Origin: an uncultured bacterium | GTDB lineage: Bacteria; Verrucomicrobiota; Kiritimatiellia; PWTM01 | DNA: 33,899 nucleotides | Direction: 5' to 3' | NCBI GenBank assembly: GCA_938010045.1 | Contig: CALLFZ010000046.1 | Coordinates: forward strand, 1-33,899 | In this document: positions 5,062 through 17,880 of the stretch, piece by piece | Layout of the letters: every line of letters begins with the position of its first letter | Position numbering within the stretch: position 1 is the first letter of the stretch | Position numbers and translations under genes: made by a program | The notes under the pieces: model-generated | Told to the model about the DNA's origin: nothing | What the model saw: only the letters and a program-made list of their open reading frames with translations | The model's database searches: none

Positions 5062-5618
5062 GCTCCCCCGCCGGACGGCCTGCGGTCTTTTTCGACCGCG
5101 ACGGCATCGTGAACGTCAGTCCCGGCCCCGGCTACGTCGAGCGCCCGGAGGACTTTCACTTGATCCCCGAGTTTCTCGATGCGCTGCGGGTGGTCCGGGA
5201 GCGCGGATATGCGGCCGTGATTGTGACCAATCAACGCGGCGTTGGTCTGGGCCGCGTCCCACGCGAGACTCTCGACAAGATCCATGCGCTTCTTCTGGAG
5301 CGCATCCGGGCCGAAGGGCTCGAACTGACGGATATTCTCGTCTGTACGGCCGTCACCGAGGAGGATCCTCGCCGGAAACCGAACCCCGGCATGTTGTTCG
5401 AAGCCGCGGAGCGGCACGGCCTCGATCTGAGCCGTTCGTGGATGATAGGCGACTCGCCAAAAGACATCGAAGCCGGTCGTCGCGCGGGGTGTGCGGTGAC
5501 CGTGAAAGTCGGTTGTACGACCGACACCGCCGGCGCGGATCGCTGTGTGCCGGATATGAGCGCGCTTGTGGAACTGCTGCGGCGCGAGGTGCCGCCCGCC
5601 GAGCCAGCGGGCCGATGA
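5058..5618 (+). CDS. HAD-IIIA phosphatase, GmhB/HisB-N-like
   Basis: This 186-residue protein has all HAD motifs: FDRDG with nucleophile Asp13 and acid/base Asp15, motif II in VTNQRGVGLG, the Lys of RRKPNPGM, and MIGDSPKDIEAG as motif III. The layout matches the D,D-heptose 1,7-bisphosphate 7-phosphatase (GmhB) and histidinol-phosphatase group. Those enzymes carry a zinc loop with several Cys before the RKP motif; here the loop is short (VCTAVTEEDPRRKPNP) and has a single Cys, so the zinc site is absent. Substrate is therefore uncertain. ATG 5058 overlaps the TIGR03790 stop (ATGA); an in-frame ATG at 5040 is inside the upstream gene and less likely. A nucleotide-sugar or heptose phosphatase role is inference. 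Confidence 0.8.
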   Translation: MSSPAGRPAVFFDRDGIVNVSPGPGYVERPEDFHLIPEFLDALRVVRERGYAAVIVTNQRGVGLGRVPRETLDKIHALLLERIRAEGLELTDILVCTAVTEEDPRRKPNPGMLFEAAERHGLDLSRSWMIGDSPKDIEAGRRAGCAVTVKVGCTTDTAGADRCVPDMSALVELLRREVPPAEPAGR

Positions 5619-5907
5619 GGCGATGCGAAGGGACTCCCTCCGGGACGAGGCCGACGCGGCCCGGTTGAGGGACAAAGACGGTTTCAGTCGGTTGGAGCCG
5701 AGCCTCCGCCGGCCGAGCCGACGACGCTGGGCATTGTTTGGAGGGGTCAGGCGAGGGGTCTGGATGGGGGGCGGAGCGCGCTGGTGCCTGTCCCCAATCT
5801 TGCCTTCGCCGACACTTCGAGGTCCAGCTGATTCCTCGCAGCGCAATCGACTCCGGCCGGCCGCCAGTCGGGTTGTCGGTTGGTCGCGAAGGGGTGATAT
5901 TGGTTGC
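5619..5907 (+). other. Intergenic gap with dispersed-repeat fragments
   Basis: No gene is supported here, although the frame of the next gene stays open through it. It holds three short sequences that recur elsewhere in the window: a 26-nt element at 5741-5766 (23/26 matching 21119-21144), a GTGCCTGTCCCCA motif at 5784-5796, and CGCAGCGCAATCG at 5837-5849 (the exact reverse complement of 21096-21108). It therefore looks like a repeat insertion site. Confidence 0.5.
5741..5766 (+). repeat. Dispersed 26-nt repeat, copy 1
   Basis: The element begins GAGGGGT, contains CGAGGGGTCTG, and ends ATG. A second copy at 21119-21144 differs at three positions. Both lie in non-coding DNA near CCTGTCCCC-type motifs. 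Confidence 0.5.
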
Positions 5908-8900
5908 ATGCATCGGCATTCCGGCTTCGGGCGTAGTCTGCGGGCGGTCGTGATCTTGGCTGCTCTTGGGTTCGGAGCATGTCCCTCCTTCGCCGGCGTT
6001 CGGATCAATGAGCTCATGGCCGCGCCCTCCGCCCGTCTTCTCCGAAGGGACACAAACGGTGTGCCGCGGCTAGGATCGGGCGTTTCGTGGATGGAGCCGC
6101 CGTTTGGGGCGACGGATTGGCTCGCCGCCACCGGTTCGTTCGGATTCGGCTCGACCGTGTTTGGCGTCAACAACGACGTTGCCGATCAGCTCAGCGGGGC
6201 CACGCTGACGATGTATCTGCGCGGCCAGTTCGTCGTGCCGCCGGCGGTGCTGGCCAGTGGAGGAACCGTGCGGCTCACCCTCGATTACGACAGCGGTTTC
6301 ATTGCCTACCTCAACGGCCGGGAAGTGGCGCGGCGCAATATGGGTCCGAGCAACACCTTCGCCTACTGTGACCAGCCCGCCTACAACTGGCGGCGCTCAG
6401 GTACGAACGAAACCTACGCACTCGGCGAAGCGACCAACCTGCTCGTGGCGGGAACGAACGTGCTGGCGGTGCAGGTTCACGGGTATACGAATGTGTCGTT
6501 CAAGGCCGCGCTGACGATGGACCTACTTTCCCCGACGGGTTCCGTCGCGCTGGTCCGCTCGAATCAGGCATGGCGGTGTTTCTTTGGCACGACCGAACCC
6601 TCCGGCGGGATTCCGGAGATCTCCGGGGTTCCCTCGACGCTGTGGGGGCTCGAGTGGACACTCGTGGACTTTCCGGACGATCCCTGGCTCGAGGGGCCGG
6701 GCGGCATCGGGTTTGGCGACAACGATGACGCGACGGACGTCTACGATCTCATGTTCGGCCGGGCGCTTTCGCTGTATCAACGCCGGCGGTTTGTGGTGGA
6801 TGAGGCCACTGCGGCCTCCACCAACGTCCTCGAGTTCCAAGTGGACTTTGATGATGGCTTCGTGGCGTATCTGAATGGGGTTGAGATTGCGCGCTCGAAC
6901 CTCGGGACGGTGGGGATGGTCGTGCCCTACAACATGCCGGCAACGCGCAGCCGCGAGGCCGGCACGCCCGTCATCTTCACGGTCGGGGTCGCGTCGAACG
7001 TTCTTGTGGCCGGCACGAACGTACTGGCGATCCAGACCCATAACGCTAGCCTGACCAGTTCCGACGTGTCGATGATTCCGTATCTGCGGTTTCGCGGAGG
7101 AGCGACGTTGGTCGCCGCGGGCGATCTCTGGCGCTACTTCGTGGGCGTGCGTTCGCCGCTGGCCAGCGAGGACGAGGAGGATCCCGAGGAGGACGCACCG
7201 GTGCTCGAGCCGGATTTCGCCGACTGGATCGAACTGTACAACGACGGCACCTCGCCCGTTTCGCTGTCCGGGTGGAGCCTGACCGACGATCCTCGCTCGC
7301 CCGCTCGGTGGACGTTCCCGTCGGGTGTGGTGCTGCCGGCCAACAGTTATCTTGTCGTGCTATGCACTGGCGCGAATCGGCGCGATCCGGCGAAGACGCT
7401 CCACACCAATTTCAAATTGAGCCGGAAGGGGGAGTACGTCGGACTCTATGATGCCGCGGGCAACGTCGTGAGCGAGATTTCGCCGGGTTTTCCGCCGCAG
7501 TCGCCGTTCTACAGCTTTGGCTGGAGTGAGTCCGAGGGCGCGTGGCGGTACTTCGAGGTCGCGACGCCCGGGGCGCGGAACGCGGGGCCGACGTGGCCGG
7601 CCATCGTCGAGCCGCCGGGCTTCGCGCTGCCCGCGGGTCTCTATACGAATAGCATCACCGTCGCCATCACGTCGGCCGTGCCCGGCGCGGCGATCCGGGT
7701 GACGCTGAACGGGGAGGAACCCAACCTCACGAACGGTTTCGCCTATACGGGTCCGTTTGTCCTCTCCACCACGGCCACGCTGCGCGCGCGCGCGTTCCGT
7801 GAGGGCTGGATCCCGTCGGTGACCGTTACGCGCTCGTATCTGGTCAACCCGCCCGCGTTGCTGCGGAACGTGCCCTCTGTGTTTCTCGCGGGATCGTGGA
7901 ACGACGCCTGGCACCAACCGAACGGCGTGATGTCGATCGTGGGGGGCGCCTGGAGCGGAGGGATTTGGTACGCGACTTCGCTCGACGACTACAACGTGCC
8001 GCTCAAGCGTGGGCGGCCGTATGAGCGTCCGATCTCGATCGAGCTGTTCGATCCGGCCAGTCATTCGGTCGCGCAGACCGACGCGGGCGTCCGGATTGCC
8101 GGCAGCAACCACGCGCGGCCCCGGTACGTGCTGCAGGCGATGAACGGGACGTGGTACGGCTCATGGACCGAAAAACCCCAGTTCAACGTCTACTTCCGTA
8201 GCATGTACGGGGAAGAGCCGTGGTCTGTGTCGCTGCAGTCCAGCCGGTGGCCCGTGCGCCCCTACGAGAGCCTGCGATTGCGGTCGGGCAAGAACGATTA
8301 TGACCGACCGTTCATCCGCGACGAGTTGATGCGCCGCCTCTACGCCGACACCGGCCAGCCGTCGAGTGTGGGCTCCATCGCAGCCCTCTATGTCAACGGC
8401 ATCTTCCGCTGTTACTATAACCCGGTCGAACGCTATGACGTCGGCTACCTGCAGTACTGGCACGGCGGCACGAGCACCTGGGACATCATCAGCCACGGCG
8501 GCGTGACCGAGGGAGACGCCGTTGCGTTGAACGCGCTGATCCAGCAGGCCACGAACACCGATCTCTCGGTCCTATCGAACTATCTGGCGATCCTGCAGAA
8601 GATCGACCCGACGAACCTGGCCGACTACATCCTCGCCAACGCCTATGGCGCGACGTGGGACTGGCCCCAGAACAACTACTACATGGCGCGTGAACGCTCT
8701 GCGCGCGGGCGGTTCCGCTTTTACATGTGGGACGCCGAGGGCGCGTTCGGTATGAACTTCAAGAACGACATCCGGTTCGACATCCTGTATGAGTGTATGA
8801 CGAACCGGAACAGCGCGGCGCGCGCGGCGATCCTCTATCGCTCACTCTGGCGGAGTCCGGAGTTTCGACTTCTTATGGCCGACCGCATCCACCGCCACTT

Positions 8901-11217
8901 TTTCAACCACGGCGCGTTCACGACGAACAACGTGATGCGCCGGTTCCTGGAGCTGAAGGACGAGGCCGATCCACTGATCACCTTCGTTCGCGGCAGTGGC
9001 ATCACGGGCACCTCCCTGACCGTGTTCACGAACTGGATCACCTACCGGCCCCCGCACTTGTTCACGCAGTTCGTGACCAACGGCGTTTGGCCGAGCACCG
9101 GCCCGCCGCTATTGCTGACGCCGCCGGGCACGGTTTCGAATGGGACCGTGGTGCAGATCGCGAACACGAACGGCACGGGCGACATCTATTACACGTTGAA
9201 CGGCGAGGATCCGCGCGCGCCCGGCGGCGCGGTCGCCGGCACGCTCTACACGAACGGCGTCGTGTTGAACGAGCCCGCGCTCCTGCTCGCGCGCGTGCGC
9301 TCGCCCTCGGGCGAATGGAGCGCGGTAACGGAAGGTCTGTACTCCACAGAGGATCCGCCCCCGATCTACATCACCGAGCTCATGTATCACCCGCCCGGAA
9401 ACGCGGCGTGGGAGTACGTCGAGCTCTACAACGCGGGCACTGAGCCGGTCGAGCTGTGGCCGCTCTCGTTCACCGTCGGCATCCAATTCTCCTTTGCGAC
9501 GGGCGCGGTGAGCCGGTTGGAGCCACGCCAGTACGTGCTGGTGGTGCAGGATCTCGCCGCGTTTGCCTCGCAGTTTAATACCAACGGCCTGCTCATCGCG
9601 GGCACATTCTCGGGGAGGCTCGATAACGCGGGCGAACGCCTCGAACTGCGCCATGCCTACTTCGGCGTGATCCACTCCTTCACCTACGACGACGCATGGT
9701 ATCCGCAGACCGACGGCGATGGCTTCGCACTCACGATCCGCGCCATCCATCCCGACCGTGAGATGTGGAACCTGCCGGAGTCCTGGAAGCCCAGCTCGAA
9801 GGTCGGCGGCAGCCCCGGCGGCCCCGACCTCGGCGAGGTGCCGCCGCCGGGCTCAGTCGTGATCAACGAACTGCTGGCTCACACCGACGCATCCCCGGTC
9901 GGAGACTGGATCGAATTGTACAACACGACGACCACCAACATTGACCTGAGCGGCTGGTGGTTGAGCGACAGCGAAGCCGAGCCCTACAAGTATCGCATTC
10001 CCGATGGCACGATTCTGCCTGGAGGCGGCTTCCTCGTGTTCAACACCACGAACCATTTTGGCGCACCGGGCCTCCCTACGGCATTTTCCTTTAGCGAGTA
10101 CGGCGAGCAGGCGGTGCTGTCCTCCGCCTGGGACGAATTCGGAAATCCCACGGGATATCGCGAGGTGCGCACGTTTGGGGCCTCCGACCGCGAGACGACC
10201 TTCGGTCGGCATGTCACCAGCGACGGCCGCGAGCTGTTTGTGATTCAGACATCGCCGACACCGGGCGGTCCGAATTCCGGACCTCGCGTGGGGCCGATCG
10301 TGATCTCGGAGGTGCTCTATGCGCCGACCGGATCGGTGCCCGAGCATGTCGAGTTCTATTGCCTTTCGCCGACCAATGTGCCCTTGTATGATCCCGCCGC
10401 GCCGACGAACTGCTGGCGGTTCCGGGGAGTGGGGACCTTCGTGTTTCCAAGTGGAGCGGTGGCGCGCGCATTCGACTCGTTCATTGTGACCGGTACCAAC
10501 CCGGCCGCATTCCGTCAGATGCGCGGCTTGCCCGAGGACTACCCTGTGTACGGCCCCTTCACGGGCCGCCTCGACAATGCCGGTGACCTGCTCCGGCTCG
10601 AACGGCCGCTGACCTTTGACCCCGCCGCACAGCCCTATGAGCTCGTGGACGCCGTCGAGTATCGGGCGCAATCGCCCTGGCCCGTGGTGCTGAACGGCGA
10701 GAGCATCCGGCGCGTGCGTCTGGCCGACTTCGGCAATGACCCCGCCAACTGGACTGCGGGCACCTCGGGCGGGCAGCCCGGCCCCAAGCCGCGCGAGGAC
10801 AGCGATGGCGACGGGATCCCCGATCGCTGGGAGGCCGCGCACGGGCGCTCGCCCACGGCCCCGGATCCCCCCTACACCGATCGCGATGGCGACGGCGTGC
10901 CGGACAGCGAGGAGTATGTCGCGGGCACGGATGCGGGAGATTCGAACGACCTGTTTCGCATCGCGATCACAGTGTCCAACGGCGTGCCCATCGTGGTGTT
11001 TTACAGCCGGGCGGCGGAGGGACCGGGATACGAGGGGCTTCTGCGCCGCTACGCGATTGAGACAGCTGGCGGTTGGCCAACCGGTGGATGGGGCTGTGTG
11101 GCCGGTTGTAGCCCTCTGATCGGCTCAAACCGGTGGGTGGCCGTGCCCGTGCCACCGCCGCCGACGAACGGCACGATCGGGGTGCAGCGAGCGCGGGTCT
11201 GGCTCGAAACTCCTTGA
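5908..11217 (+). CDS. Giant secreted lamin-tail / CotH-kinase surface protein
   Basis: This 1769-residue protein starts at ATG 5908, which gives a signal peptide (basic MHRHSGFGRSLR, hydrophobic core, cleavage near SFAGVRINE). Two homologous beta-sandwich modules come first, marked by DYDSGFIAYLNGREVARR (near residue 130) and DFDDGFVAYLNGVEIARS (near 315). A lamin-tail-like domain follows around 430-490 (DWIELYNDG, LSGWSLTD). CotH-like kinase homology spans about 670-990, including LRSGKNDYDRPFIRDEL and the YMWDAEGAFGMN motif near 937-948, where the acidic residue fits the metal-binding position of CotH. More lamin-tail-like units lie near 1155, 1318 and 1465, interspersed with chitobiase-like beta repeats (ITVAITSAVPGA; YYTLNGEDP). 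The end has calcium-binding type-3 repeats (DSDGDGIPDRWE; DRDGDGVPDSEE). No sorting signal is visible at the C-terminus. Such proteins are common in PVC bacteria; a surface role is inferred. Confidence 0.85.
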   Translation: MHRHSGFGRSLRAVVILAALGFGACPSFAGVRINELMAAPSARLLRRDTNGVPRLGSGVSWMEPPFGATDWLAATGSFGFGSTVFGVNNDVADQLSGATLTMYLRGQFVVPPAVLASGGTVRLTLDYDSGFIAYLNGREVARRNMGPSNTFAYCDQPAYNWRRSGTNETYALGEATNLLVAGTNVLAVQVHGYTNVSFKAALTMDLLSPTGSVALVRSNQAWRCFFGTTEPSGGIPEISGVPSTLWGLEWTLVDFPDDPWLEGPGGIGFGDNDDATDVYDLMFGRALSLYQRRRFVVDEATAASTNVLEFQVDFDDGFVAYLNGVEIARSNLGTVGMVVPYNMPATRSREAGTPVIFTVGVASNVLVAGTNVLAIQTHNASLTSSDVSMIPYLRFRGGATLVAAGDLWRYFVGVRSPLASEDEEDPEEDAPVLEPDFADWIELYNDGTSPVSLSGWSLTDDPRSPARWTFPSGVVLPANSYLVVLCTGANRRDPAKTLHTNFKLSRKGEYVGLYDAAGNVVSEISPGFPPQSPFYSFGWSESEGAWRYFEVATPGARNAGPTWPAIVEPPGFALPAGLYTNSITVAITSAVPGAAIRVTLNGEEPNLTNGFAYTGPFVLSTTATLRARAFREGWIPSVTVTRSYLVNPPALLRNVPSVFLAGSWNDAWHQPNGVMSIVGGAWSGGIWYATSLDDYNVPLKRGRPYERPISIELFDPASHSVAQTDAGVRIAGSNHARPRYVLQAMNGTWYGSWTEKPQFNVYFRSMYGEEPWSVSLQSSRWPVRPYESLRLRSGKNDYDRPFIRDELMRRLYADTGQPSSVGSIAALYVNGIFRCYYNPVERYDVGYLQYWHGGTSTWDIISHGGVTEGDAVALNALIQQATNTDLSVLSNYLAILQKIDPTNLADYILANAYGATWDWPQNNYYMARERSARGRFRFYMWDAEGAFGMNFKNDIRFDILYECMTNRNSAARAAILYRSLWRSPEFRLLMADRIHRHFFNHGAFTTNNVMRRFLELKDEADPLITFVRGSGITGTSLTVFTNWITYRPPHLFTQFVTNGVWPSTGPPLLLTPPGTVSNGTVVQIANTNGTGDIYYTLNGEDPRAPGGAVAGTLYTNGVVLNEPALLLARVRSPSGEWSAVTEGLYSTEDPPPIYITELMYHPPGNAAWEYVELYNAGTEPVELWPLSFTVGIQFSFATGAVSRLEPRQYVLVVQDLAAFASQFNTNGLLIAGTFSGRLDNAGERLELRHAYFGVIHSFTYDDAWYPQTDGDGFALTIRAIHPDREMWNLPESWKPSSKVGGSPGGPDLGEVPPPGSVVINELLAHTDASPVGDWIELYNTTTTNIDLSGWWLSDSEAEPYKYRIPDGTILPGGGFLVFNTTNHFGAPGLPTAFSFSEYGEQAVLSSAWDEFGNPTGYREVRTFGASDRETTFGRHVTSDGRELFVIQTSPTPGGPNSGPRVGPIVISEVLYAPTGSVPEHVEFYCLSPTNVPLYDPAAPTNCWRFRGVGTFVFPSGAVARAFDSFIVTGTNPAAFRQMRGLPEDYPVYGPFTGRLDNAGDLLRLERPLTFDPAAQPYELVDAVEYRAQSPWPVVLNGESIRRVRLADFGNDPANWTAGTSGGQPGPKPREDSDGDGIPDRWEAAHGRSPTAPDPPYTDRDGDGVPDSEEYVAGTDAGDSNDLFRIAITVSNGVPIVVFYSRAAEGPGYEGLLRRYAIETAGGWPTGGWGCVAGCSPLIGSNRWVAVPVPPPPTNGTIGVQRARVWLETP

Positions 11218-11753: not shown

Positions 11754-11830
11754 GTACCTGTAGCTCAATTGGACAGAGCACCAGACTACGGATCTGGGGG
11801 TTGCAGGTTCGACTCCTGCCAGGTACGCCA
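11754..11830 (+). tRNA. tRNA-Arg(ACG)
   Basis: A complete 77-nt cloverleaf. The acceptor strands GTACCTG (11754-11760) and CAGGTAC pair fully, the discriminator is G, and the 3' CCA is encoded (11828-11830). The D arm is GCTC...GAGC, the anticodon stem is CCAGA/TCTGG around loop CTACGGA, giving anticodon ACG. The T arm is GCAGG TTCGACT CCTGC. The wobble A should be deaminated to inosine so the tRNA reads CGU, CGC and CGA. Confidence 0.97.
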
Positions 11831-11910: not shown

Positions 11911-12215
11911 ATGAGACGGCCGGCGGCGCTCGATCCTGCAGCCATTCTTCGAACCTCGAGTTTCGTGGCCGCCCAGAGCCCGGCGCCTCCCGCCAATGTC
12001 GTGGTCATCCTCTGCAACGATCAGAGCGTCGGCGACGTCGTCACTTTCGGCGCGGCCGACATCGGCGCGCCGGGCAGCGTCGGCTCGCGGCCCGACGATC
12101 GGGTCAAGCCTCCCGACAACGCGCAGGGCTTCGATGTTTCGTTCGGCCACAGGGGTGGTGGCTGCGACCACTGGTCACAGTCCGGCTTCGCGGCGCGCAC
12201 GGTGCACGGTTCGCG
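11911..12215 (+). pseudogene. Decayed sulfatase N-terminus (fragment)
   Basis: The frame starting at ATG 11911 reads a signal-peptide-like leader and then PPANVVVILCNDQSVGDVVTFGA, which resembles the formylglycine-sulfatase opening (xPNhhhIlxDDxgxGDxxxxGa). The match then continues in another frame (QRRLAARR near 12079, like the family's IDRLAxxG) and returns to the first frame (DRVKPPDNAQ near 12099). No CxPSR-type active site follows, and the sequence stops where the photolyase-related gene begins. I read this as a short frameshifted remnant; the match is by eye and could be chance. It sits directly after the tRNA, a common site for insertions and deletions. Confidence 0.4.
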
Positions 12216-12250: not shown

Positions 12251-13789
12251 ATGAGGCGAGCCGCGCGCAGGGGGGCCGCCGGCGGGCCGCGCCTCGAAAC
12301 CGCGCACGTCGAGGCGGCGATCGTCTTTCCTCACCAGCTGTTTGAACGGCATCCGGCCGTCGCCCGCGGCCGGCTCATCGTGCTCATCGAGGACTCTCTG
12401 TTCTTCGGTGATCGCGACGCGCCGGCGCATATTCATCAGCAAAAGCTGGCGTTTCACCGGATCACGATGGGGCGCTGGGCTGAGCACCGCGGGCGCGAGG
12501 GACACGCGGTGCGGCTCGTGCGATACGAGCCGCGCGTCACGTCCGTCGAGGTCCTCGAGTCGCTCGCGCGGCAGGGGATCACGCGCTGGTGGATCGCCGA
12601 TCCGGTGGACGACTGGCTCGAGCGTCGCATACGCCGGGCGGCCGAGCGGACCGGCGCGCGTGTCCAATGGTTGGACAGTCCGGCCTTTCTCGTGTCCAAG
12701 GCTTGGAATGAGGCCTGGCTCGATGCACATCCGACGGCTCGCCTTGCCAACTATTACATCGCGCAGCGCCGCGAACGGGAGATTCTCCTCGATCGCAGCG
12801 GCGGGCCGCTCGGCGGGCGATGGAGTCTCGACGCGGAGAATCGCCGGCGATGGCCTCGCGGGCGCGTCCCTCCGCCGGCACCGCGTGCAGAGCTCTCGCC
12901 GGACGAGCGCGAGATGGCCGCCGAGGTCGCGCGGGAATTCGCATCCCACCCTGGTCACGCCCGCGACCTGTGGATCCCCACCGATACCGCGAGCGCGCGG
13001 CGATGGTTGGACGACTTCGTTCATCGGCGGTTGCCGGAGTTCGGACCGTATGAGGATGCGATCGCGGCGGAGCACGATGTGCTCTGCCACTCGGTCCTGT
13101 CGCCGCTGCTGAACGCTGGTCTGCTGCGGCCGGGCGAAGTGATTGAGGCGGTGCTCGATGCCGGACGCGACGGGCGAGCGCCGCTGAATTCGGTCGAGGG
13201 ATTCGTGCGCCAAGTGCTGGGCTGGCGCGAGTACGTGCGCGCGCTGTACCAGCGGCACGGCGTGGCGATGCGCACCGCAAACGTCTGGGGACATCGCCGA
13301 CCGATGCCGGCCGCGTTCTACACGGCCCAGACCGGTCTGCCGCCGCTGGACGGCGCGATCCGGCGGGTGTTGCGGCTCGGCTGGTGCCATCACATTGAAC
13401 GGCTCATGGTCATCGGCGCCGTGATGCTCATGCTGGAGCTGGATCCGAACGCCGTGTACCGCTGGTTCATGGAGCTCTTCCTCGACGCGTACGACTGGGT
13501 GATGGTTCCGAATGTGTATGGAATGAGCCAGTTTGCGGACGGTGGTCGGATGGCCACCAAGCCCTATCTGAGCGGCTCGGCGTACCTGCGCCGAATGAGC
13601 GACTTCGCGCCCGGTCCGTGGTGCGACGTGTGGGACGGACTGTTCTGGCGGTTCGTGGCCCGCCGACGCGAATTCTTCGCCGCCCATCCGCGGCTCGGCA
13701 TGCTCGTGCGGCAGCATGACCGCATGGGTTCGGCGCGCCGCCGGCAGATTCTCGATGCCGCCGCGCGGTGGGAGGCGTTGCTCGACTGA
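12251..13789 (+). CDS. Cryptochrome/photolyase-related protein (PhrB/DPRP family) without Fe-S cysteines
   Basis: This 512-residue protein matches the deoxyribodipyrimidine photolyase-related family (PF04244), the group of bacterial (6-4) photolyase PhrB. The N-terminal part (IVFPHQLFERHP, VLIEDSLFFGD) is the antenna-binding Rossmann half. The C-terminal FAD half shows HHIERLMVIGAVML, DAYDWVMVPNVYGMSQFADGG and TKPYLSGSAYLRRMSDF. In PhrB a [4Fe-4S] cluster is held by four Cys, one before the HHIxRLM motif and three after the MSDY motif. Here the first position reads LPPLDGAI and the later ones MSDFAPGPWCDVWDGLFW, so the ligand set is missing. I chose ATG 12251 because homology starts soon after. 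Light-driven DNA repair is likely, but a non-repair photoreceptor is possible. Confidence 0.88.
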   Translation: MRRAARRGAAGGPRLETAHVEAAIVFPHQLFERHPAVARGRLIVLIEDSLFFGDRDAPAHIHQQKLAFHRITMGRWAEHRGREGHAVRLVRYEPRVTSVEVLESLARQGITRWWIADPVDDWLERRIRRAAERTGARVQWLDSPAFLVSKAWNEAWLDAHPTARLANYYIAQRREREILLDRSGGPLGGRWSLDAENRRRWPRGRVPPPAPRAELSPDEREMAAEVAREFASHPGHARDLWIPTDTASARRWLDDFVHRRLPEFGPYEDAIAAEHDVLCHSVLSPLLNAGLLRPGEVIEAVLDAGRDGRAPLNSVEGFVRQVLGWREYVRALYQRHGVAMRTANVWGHRRPMPAAFYTAQTGLPPLDGAIRRVLRLGWCHHIERLMVIGAVMLMLELDPNAVYRWFMELFLDAYDWVMVPNVYGMSQFADGGRMATKPYLSGSAYLRRMSDFAPGPWCDVWDGLFWRFVARRREFFAAHPRLGMLVRQHDRMGSARRRQILDAAARWEALLD

Positions 13790-15997: not shown

Positions 15998-17026
15998 GTG
16001 ACCGAGGGCCGCACATCAACGGTCGGCACACCGCTTACGTGGCGGTCGTGGTGGGGCTTATGGCTGGGCGGCCTGGTGGCGGCCGCGGCAGCGTTCTGGT
16101 TCGCCACGCGGCTGGGGCCGTTGGCGCTCGGGCCGGGCGTGCCGTGGGAGGATCCCATCTGGCGTTTGCGAGCGGCACGTGCGGCGGCGGCCGGCATTGT
16201 CGGCGGGGCATTGGGAATGGCCGGCGCGGCGATGCAGGGGCTCCTGCGCAATCCGCTCGGCGAACCCTATCTGCTGGGTATGTCGAGCGGCGCAGGCGTT
16301 GGTGTGCGGCTCGGCGGCCTGCTCGGATGGGGCGCGGGGTGGCTGGCGTGGCGCACGCCGCTGCTGGCGCTTGCGGGCGCGGTGGCCGCGGGCGCGATCG
16401 TCTACGCGGTGGCATGGCGCGGCGGGTGGCGGGATCCGTGGTCGCTGGTGCTGGCCGGTGTGATGATGAACGTCGTCAATGGCGCAATCATCATGGCGCT
16501 CTATTTGTGGACCGATCCGTGGCGGCTCGACGAGTTCGCCCGCTGGTCCATGGGAGAGATCCCGGAGGCGGTGGATCCGGTTCTGCTCGGCGCGGCGGGG
16601 CTGATGGCAACCGCCAGCGCTGTGGCTCTTTGCGGGCGCGCCGCTTCCTTGAATGCGATGGTCATGGGCGACGAGACCGCGCTGTCGGTCGGCGTGCCGG
16701 TGGCCGCCGTGCGCCGGTCGGTCGCGATTGCCTCCGGTCTTGCGACCGCCGCCGCGGTCTCGATCGCGGGGCCGGTCAGTTTCATCGGTTTGCTTGTTCC
16801 CCACCTCGGCCGCCGAGTCGTCGGGGCCGATCACCGGCGACTACTGCCGTGGTCGCTGTGGGCCGGCGCGGTCTGGATGATGCTGGCCGACGCGCTCTGC
16901 CGCACGGGTGGCGAACGTCTCGGCGTCGGGCGCCTGCCAGTGGGCCTCGTGATGGCGCTGATCGGTGCGCCGGTTTTTCTCGTCGTGCTGCGAGGTGCGA
17001 TCCGCGGGGACGGAGGCTTGCGGTGA
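15998..17026 (+). CDS. FecCD/BtuC-family ABC transporter permease
   Basis: This 342-residue protein is a polytopic permease of the iron-siderophore / heme / cobalamin importer type. Typical family segments are LRAARAAAAGIVGGALGMAG, the AMQGLLRNPLGEPYLLGMSSGAG block near residues 80-100 (shortened here: MQGLLRNPLGEPYLLG), WSMGEI, and the GPVSFIGLLVPHLGRR loop near 265-280 that contacts the ATPase. It starts with GTG 15998; no better start is visible. Its TGA overlaps the ATPase GTG. No substrate-binding protein or TonB receptor lies in the window, so the substrate (cobalamin, heme or Fe-siderophore) is open. Confidence 0.9.
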   Translation: MTEGRTSTVGTPLTWRSWWGLWLGGLVAAAAAFWFATRLGPLALGPGVPWEDPIWRLRAARAAAAGIVGGALGMAGAAMQGLLRNPLGEPYLLGMSSGAGVGVRLGGLLGWGAGWLAWRTPLLALAGAVAAGAIVYAVAWRGGWRDPWSLVLAGVMMNVVNGAIIMALYLWTDPWRLDEFARWSMGEIPEAVDPVLLGAAGLMATASAVALCGRAASLNAMVMGDETALSVGVPVAAVRRSVAIASGLATAAAVSIAGPVSFIGLLVPHLGRRVVGADHRRLLPWSLWAGAVWMMLADALCRTGGERLGVGRLPVGLVMALIGAPVFLVVLRGAIRGDGGLR

Positions 17027-17880
17027 GCGCGGCGATCGAGGCGCGCGAGGTCAGCGTGCGCGCGGGCGACGTCACGATCTTGGACACCGTGACATTTCGA
17101 ATGGAGGCCGGCGAGCTCGTCGCATTGCTGGGGCCCAATGGCGCGGGCAAAACGACGCTGCTGCGGTGCCTCGCCGGCTTGCGCACACCGACCTCCGGCG
17201 AGGTGCGGGTGGTCGCCCGTCCGCTGTCTCGTATCTCACGCGGCGAATTGGCGCGGGTGCTCGCCTACGTGCCGCAGGTGACGGTACCGGCGCCAGGGTT
17301 TCGCGCGCGCGACCTGGTGCTGCTGGGACGGCACGCGCGGATGGGTTGGTTGGGCGTGCCCGGGGAACCGGACCTCGCGGTGGTCACCGCGGCCATGGAG
17401 ATGACGGGCACCGCGGCGCTGGCCGATCGCCTGCTTGGGGAACTCTCGGCCGGCGAGCTGCAGCGCGTGGCGATCGCTCGCGCTCTCGCCCAACAGCCGG
17501 CCATCGTGTTGCTCGATGAGCCAACAAGCCATCTCGACCTGCGTCAACAGTTGCGCATCGGCGAGATGCTGCGGCGCGTCGCGCACGACTGGCCGCTCGC
17601 CGTGTTGGCGGTCATGCATGACCCCAACCTTGCGGCGCGGTTTGCCGACCGTGTACTGGTGCTCCACCACGGGCGCCGGGTTGCGGACGGCCCGGCCTCA
17701 GCAGCGTTAACGCCGGAACGGCTGCGCGAGGTCTATGGGGTTGAGGCCGAGGTTCAGCGCGGCGCGGAGGGCGAATCGCCGATCGTGGTTGTGCGCGGAC
17801 TCACGTCGCACGATGGTCATGACGGCTCGCCGGGGGAGGCGCCCCCGCGTCACTCGACCGGTGCATCGACCAGGCCGTAG
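17023..17880 (+). CDS. FecE/BtuD-type ABC transporter ATP-binding protein
   Basis: This 285-residue ATPase shows Walker A GPNGAGKT at residues 37-44, signature LSAGELQR, Walker B IVLLDEP with Asp165 and catalytic Glu166, and the H-loop VMHDPNLA. LGRHARMGWLG after the Q-loop region is characteristic of the iron/cobalamin importer subfamily. The start is the GTG of a GTGA junction with the permease, so the two are translationally coupled. The last 30 nt overlap the end of the convergent minus-strand gene. It energises import by the upstream permease. Confidence 0.9.
   Translation: MSAAIEAREVSVRAGDVTILDTVTFRMEAGELVALLGPNGAGKTTLLRCLAGLRTPTSGEVRVVARPLSRISRGELARVLAYVPQVTVPAPGFRARDLVLLGRHARMGWLGVPGEPDLAVVTAAMEMTGTAALADRLLGELSAGELQRVAIARALAQQPAIVLLDEPTSHLDLRQQLRIGEMLRRVAHDWPLAVLAVMHDPNLAARFADRVLVLHHGRRVADGPASAALTPERLREVYGVEAEVQRGAEGESPIVVVRGLTSHDGHDGSPGEAPPRHSTGASTRP

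Follow-up and report, generated by a model that had tools for sequence, protein, structure and literature searches.

In the window, a stretch of 33,899 nucleotides on contig CALLFZ010000046.1 from an uncultured member of the Verrucomicrobiota (Kiritimatiellia, PWTM01), positions 12251–13789 (+) form one open frame that translates into a photolyase of 512 aa followed by a stop codon (Table 1). The mechanical ORF of this gene reaches upstream to position 11996. A GGAGA sequence lies about 8 bases upstream of the ATG at 12251, the alignments of most relatives begin at about residue 16–24 of the 512-aa protein, and residues 1–16 of the predicted structure have low confidence. The gene is preceded by a tRNA-Arg (acg) gene (11754–11830) and followed by a gene for an unrelated CBM9/He_PIG protein; no functional hint was obtained from either neighbour. 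At 5566–11217, an ORF of 1883 aa encodes a large protein that matches lamin-tail three times and also has CotH kinase and Fn3-associated domains. Two genes downstream of the photolyase gene, a FecCD-type transporter permease is encoded at 15998–17026, and is overlapped by a frame, the second half of which resembles an ABC ATPase; the region 15998–17880 may serve the uptake of iron or cobalamin.

Table 1. Features of the photolyase gene and the second photolyase gene of the same genome (positions refer to the window unless indicated).
Feature	Position	Strand	Evidence
Cluster-free prokaryotic (6-4)-type photolyase gene	12251..13789	+	translation, Pfam, alignment
N-terminal antenna-type domain (PF04244), ~residues 22–239	12314..12967	+	Pfam
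Pro365, column of first Fe-S ligand (PhrB Cys350)	13343..13345	+	alignment
His380-His381 of CHHIERLM; His381 = PhrB His366 column	13388..13393	+	alignment
Tyr439 to Tyr445, with Tyr at the columns of PhrB Tyr424 and Tyr430	13565..13585	+	alignment
APGPWCDVWDG, residues 453–463, in place of CxxC...C ligand loop	13607..13639	+	alignment
Class-II-like photolyase	G000:C4:16450-16935 (L083:1483-3087), outside window	-	TIGR00591 525 bits

Matches above cut-off were obtained with PF04244 (142.5 bits, cut-off 22.1; E 2.2e-41) and with FAD_binding_7, the FAD domain of photolyases (32.4, cut-off 27), which places the protein in the prokaryotic 6-4 photolyase family. With phmmer, it matched the solved Fe-S enzymes at E-values of 1.4e-77 to 2.6e-67, the closest being SePhrB (8ijy, E 1.4e-77) and the others those of Caulobacter (9hnk) and Vibrio (7ykn), CryB (3zxs) and PhrB (4dja). 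The PF04244 score and the phmmer matches thus bear out the assignment to the PhrB family made in the initial annotation. No match to the class II CPD model TIGR00591 was obtained for the 512-aa protein at E 1e-3, and NCBIfam class I photolyase models matched only far below their cut-offs. The predicted structure (mean pLDDT 92) superposed on PhrB (4dja) with a Z of 44.5 and an rmsd of 2.0 over 485 residues, while the best photolyase outside the prokaryotic 6-4 family reached a Z of 28.0. With the FeS-BCP enzymes (PhrB, CryB, SePhrB, Vibrio, Caulobacter), the protein shares the fold, the FAD domain and the HHI.RLM, KPY and Tyr445 motifs, with 31–33% identity when structurally aligned. CPD photolyases of classes I and II have the photolyase fold as well (Z ~25–28), but reach only 12–17% identity in such an alignment. 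A pseudogene was ruled out by the open frame, the retained catalytic residues and a same-genus copy of 73% identity. Short photolyase-like (SPL) proteins lack the N-terminal domain, and this identity was ruled out by the PF04244 match covering residues 24–239.

When the protein is aligned with four Fe-S photolyases of solved structure, Pro365, Ala453, a gap and Asp459 stand in the columns of the [4Fe-4S] ligands, each of which is Cys in the solved enzymes. All Fe-S ligand positions are therefore missing, as had been proposed from the sequence stretches LPPLD (363–367) and APGPWCDVWDG, both of which lie where they had been placed. The ligand loop is about 10 residues shorter than that of the FeS-BCP enzymes. 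Only three Cys occur in the entire protein (279, 379 and 458), none of them at a ligand column, and a PhrB-type four-Cys cluster is impossible for this reason; of the four [4Fe-4S]-binding Cys that characterize FeS-BCP, it has 0/4. The initial annotation had also noted the structural importance of the cluster in PhrB, in agreement with the Cys mutants described in PMC4619345, which were insoluble or not expressed.

We typed the ligand columns in 210 family members after removal of duplicates: 205 proteins from fetched loci (the best 30 per genome search), four chains of solved structure and the query itself. All four ligands were absent in 146 proteins, the query among them, a number that does not represent a natural frequency as the query served to retrieve the cluster-free set, and all four were present in 64; intermediates with one to three ligand Cys were not observed among the 210. 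Four further copies outside the 210, which are partial, low-scoring or broken (the second copy of G272, G409, G499 and G346), had 4/4 Cys as well. Since the same state occurs in 146 of 210 typed members, the absence of ligands is not due to chance and, beyond what had been noted before, characterizes a whole clade rather than a local oddity. Left out of the counts were copies of the query (L001, L082, L084), a frame without the C-terminal part (L119) and other photolyases without a match at 1e-20 (L083, L098–L104, L106); 26 duplicates were omitted from ligand typing, and L105 was omitted from a 134-row motif alignment. In the latter, the columns picked by motif for PhrB Asp179 and Asp254, which we take to be Mg2+ residues, were Asp in 134/134 rows. 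In L223 and L224 the HHI.RLM region reads SNHIERLM: Asn replaces the leading His of the pair, while the His366 equivalent is kept. A same-genus homologue, L086 (G002:C44:9704-11203), has one TGA within its match, and 32 N-terminal residues matched separately (L105), pointing to a possible upstream frame break.

The two forms also differ in a set of residues at both ends of the former cluster site. Column 365 is Pro in 145/146 cluster-free proteins and Cys in 64/64 Fe-S proteins. Asp367 and Trp457 (each 145/146) correspond to mixed residues in the 64 Fe-S proteins, Trp461 (145/146) to Phe in 58/64, and Asp462 (144/146) to Asn in 37 or Thr in 26 of 64. Glu383 and Met418 are invariant in the cluster-free set (146/146), where Fe-S members have Gln in 52/64 and Glu in 29/64, respectively. 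The sole exception at columns 365, 367, 457 and 461 is L244, a divergent cluster-free copy with Leu for Pro365, Glu for Asp367 and Gly for Trp457, in which most of the signature is gone. At the former cluster site, helices 364–376 and 456–471 were predicted with high confidence (residues 441–480 at pLDDT 91–97 by ten-residue block). Judging from conservation and secondary structure, Pro365, Asp367, Trp457, Trp461 and Asp462 probably pack into the former place of the cluster.

To place the protein, trees were calculated. The first was built from 113 rows after deletion of the ligand columns and included, besides the query, 75 cluster-free rows out of 96 (mutually <70% identical); one branch with an SH-aLRT of 100 separated 76 cluster-free from 37 Fe-S rows. 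Alignment with PhrB and tree placement, both suggested by the initial annotation, yielded no ligand Cys and a fully supported cluster-free clade. This clade includes Synechococcus L053, PromaPL itself not being among the tree rows. Among named sequences, those closest to the query come from uncultured bacteria and Opitutaceae-like Verrucomicrobiota. Named carriers of the cluster-free form belong to the Bacteroidota, Verrucomicrobiota, Cyanobacteriota, Acidobacteriota, Planctomycetota, Spirochaetota, Nitrospirota and Ignavibacteriota. In a tree rooted with five other photolyases, four of class I and one of class II, 46 cluster-free rows formed a clade (SH-aLRT 100) nested inside the Fe-S rows, although the forks responsible reached only 88 and 92 and the outgroup branches were very long. 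This nesting weakly favours a single loss; most likely, the cluster disappeared once and early. In the rooted tree, the query falls into a 23-row set (SH-aLRT 97) together with copies of marine Synechococcus and small-genome cyanobacteria.

Matches occurred in 224 of 1026 genomes from four phylum samples, 69 with the cluster-free form and 155 with the other; the forms of unfetched copies were assigned by score, as typed loci of at least 350 bits were all cluster-free and those of at most 305 bits all Fe-S. None of the 224 genomes had both forms, where 12.7 would be expected if they were independent and kinship is ignored. Within the family of the query, the two forms reside in different genomes (G000–G002 and G008), and the same applies to one other genus of the phylum (G201 and G292); the different forms within this genus (L123 of G201, cluster-free, and L143 of G292, Fe-S) suggest gene exchange. 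Because the forms were not found together in any of the 224 genomes and yet occur in different genomes within a family or genus, they look like alternatives for one job, which would be the 6-4 repair carried out by the Fe-S form.

Related cluster-free sequences were already known, as the initial annotation had supposed: according to PMC9178010, the cluster-free PromaPL of Prochlorococcus marinus and 19 others form subgroup M of the prokaryotic 6-4 photolyases, with the four-Cys set missing in subgroup M and present in all members outside it. PMC9426592 identifies Phr2 as the equivalent of PromaPL and describes most picocyanobacterial Phr2 as lacking the cysteines; orthologues without them are also mentioned in PMC12082625, whereas PMC9649867 and PMC9498864 contributed no information about cluster-free proteins. 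The query is likewise a PF04244-type two-domain enzyme without the four Cys and has Phe and Met on the FAD side. It stems from a different phylum than PromaPL/Phr2, and shares 38–58% identity with cluster-free proteins from the cyanobacterial sample; the top values refer to the FAD domain only. Its FAD-side residues are Tyr357, Trp405, Phe406, Phe410 and Met418, of which the last three stand where PhrB has Tyr, Tyr and Glu (Glu403). This fits the pattern given in PMC9178010 for the non-ABG subgroups, including subgroup M, in which the PhrB electron-transfer chain is not intact and Met is often found near FAD N5. The query is most likely an ordinary additional sequence of the published cluster-free clade. 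In the antenna domain, FPHQLF replaces the LGDQL motif of Fe-S relatives. A DMRL synthase is encoded in the query genome, as in 14/14 control genomes, and no cofG match above cut-off was found there, which argues against an 8-HDF antenna.

In PhrB, His366, Tyr424 and Tyr430 are needed for repair or lesion binding according to PMC4619345, in which the primers provided the sequence context of these residues. Their equivalents, His381, Tyr439 and Tyr445, are kept in 210/210 typed proteins. A second PF04244 gene was not found in the query genome; its other photolyase matched best to TIGR00591 (class II CPD; below the curated cut-off of 550). Based on the conserved residues, the separate class-II-like CPD photolyase and the lack of genomes with both forms, the protein most likely repairs (6-4) photoproducts. 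Light would reduce and excite FAD, which would pass an electron to the photoproduct; His381 would protonate the lesion, and Tyr439 and Tyr445 would assist in its binding. Whereas the [4Fe-4S] cluster holds the roof subdomain in PhrB, this task would here fall to the shortened loop and helix 456–471, packed via Pro365, Asp367, Trp457, Trp461 and Asp462, and the enzyme would need no iron. We assign a probability of about 0.7 to this reading as a whole, that is, a subgroup M prokaryotic 6-4 photolyase that repairs (6-4) photoproducts, with protein packing in place of a cluster lost once and early.

The published substrate of the clade is in conflict with regard to this point. PMC9426592 proposes CPD repair for cluster-free Phr2 on the ground that the cluster is absent, and reports that Synechococcus survives UV-B less well once phr2 is lost and that phr2 raises light-dependent survival after UV-B nearly tenfold in E. 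coli without photolyase; these data do not separate the lesions. Cluster loss might thus have accompanied a change of substrate, with the clade repairing CPD alone or besides (6-4) photoproducts. We consider this unlikely, as PromaPL is termed a 6-4 photolyase in both PMC9178010 and PMC9426592, the three lesion-site residues are invariant, a class-II-like CPD enzyme already exists in the query genome and the two forms were not found together in any of the 224 genomes. A cryptochrome-like role in blue-light sensing, with repair weak or absent, would be in line with Phe406, Phe410 and Met418 and with RsCryB, a member of the same family that regulates gene expression (PMC9178010); the lesion-site residues, however, are fully kept and Pfam names no signalling domain in the scanned neighbours, which makes such a role quite improbable.

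Least probable is a metal site on other Cys or His residues. Columns 379 and 395 are indeed Cys in 104/146 and 137/146 cluster-free members, the latter being mostly Ala or Leu in Fe-S members, and Cys379 is present in the query. Cys458 is located one column away from the last ligand, in a column that is Cys in 55/146 and Gln in 63/146 cluster-free members. However, the query has Leu395 (13433–13435) and three scattered Cys, and CxxC occurs anywhere in only 1/146 cluster-free proteins compared to 64/64 Fe-S proteins. Conserved alternative Cys ligands, which would have contradicted the initial annotation, were thus looked for and ruled out.

The cluster-free form is already known in print, and the (6-4) substrate is a candidate property across the clade. 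A bolder reading, somewhat doubtful at present, would be that a conserved Pro/Asp/Trp/Trp/Asp plug and a ten-residue loop deletion were exchanged for the [4Fe-4S] cluster in a single ancient all-or-none swap, with forms interchangeable between genomes. If true, the cluster would be scaffolding that evolution can replace by protein packing, and 6-4 repair would not need charge transfer through it. PMC12082625 describes the cluster's role in these prokaryotic enzymes as poorly understood. A natural cluster-free clade, to which the query adds one more sequence, is the obvious comparison and a natural test of this role, and the plug residues Pro365, Asp367, Trp457, Trp461 and Asp462 indicate substitutions worth trying.
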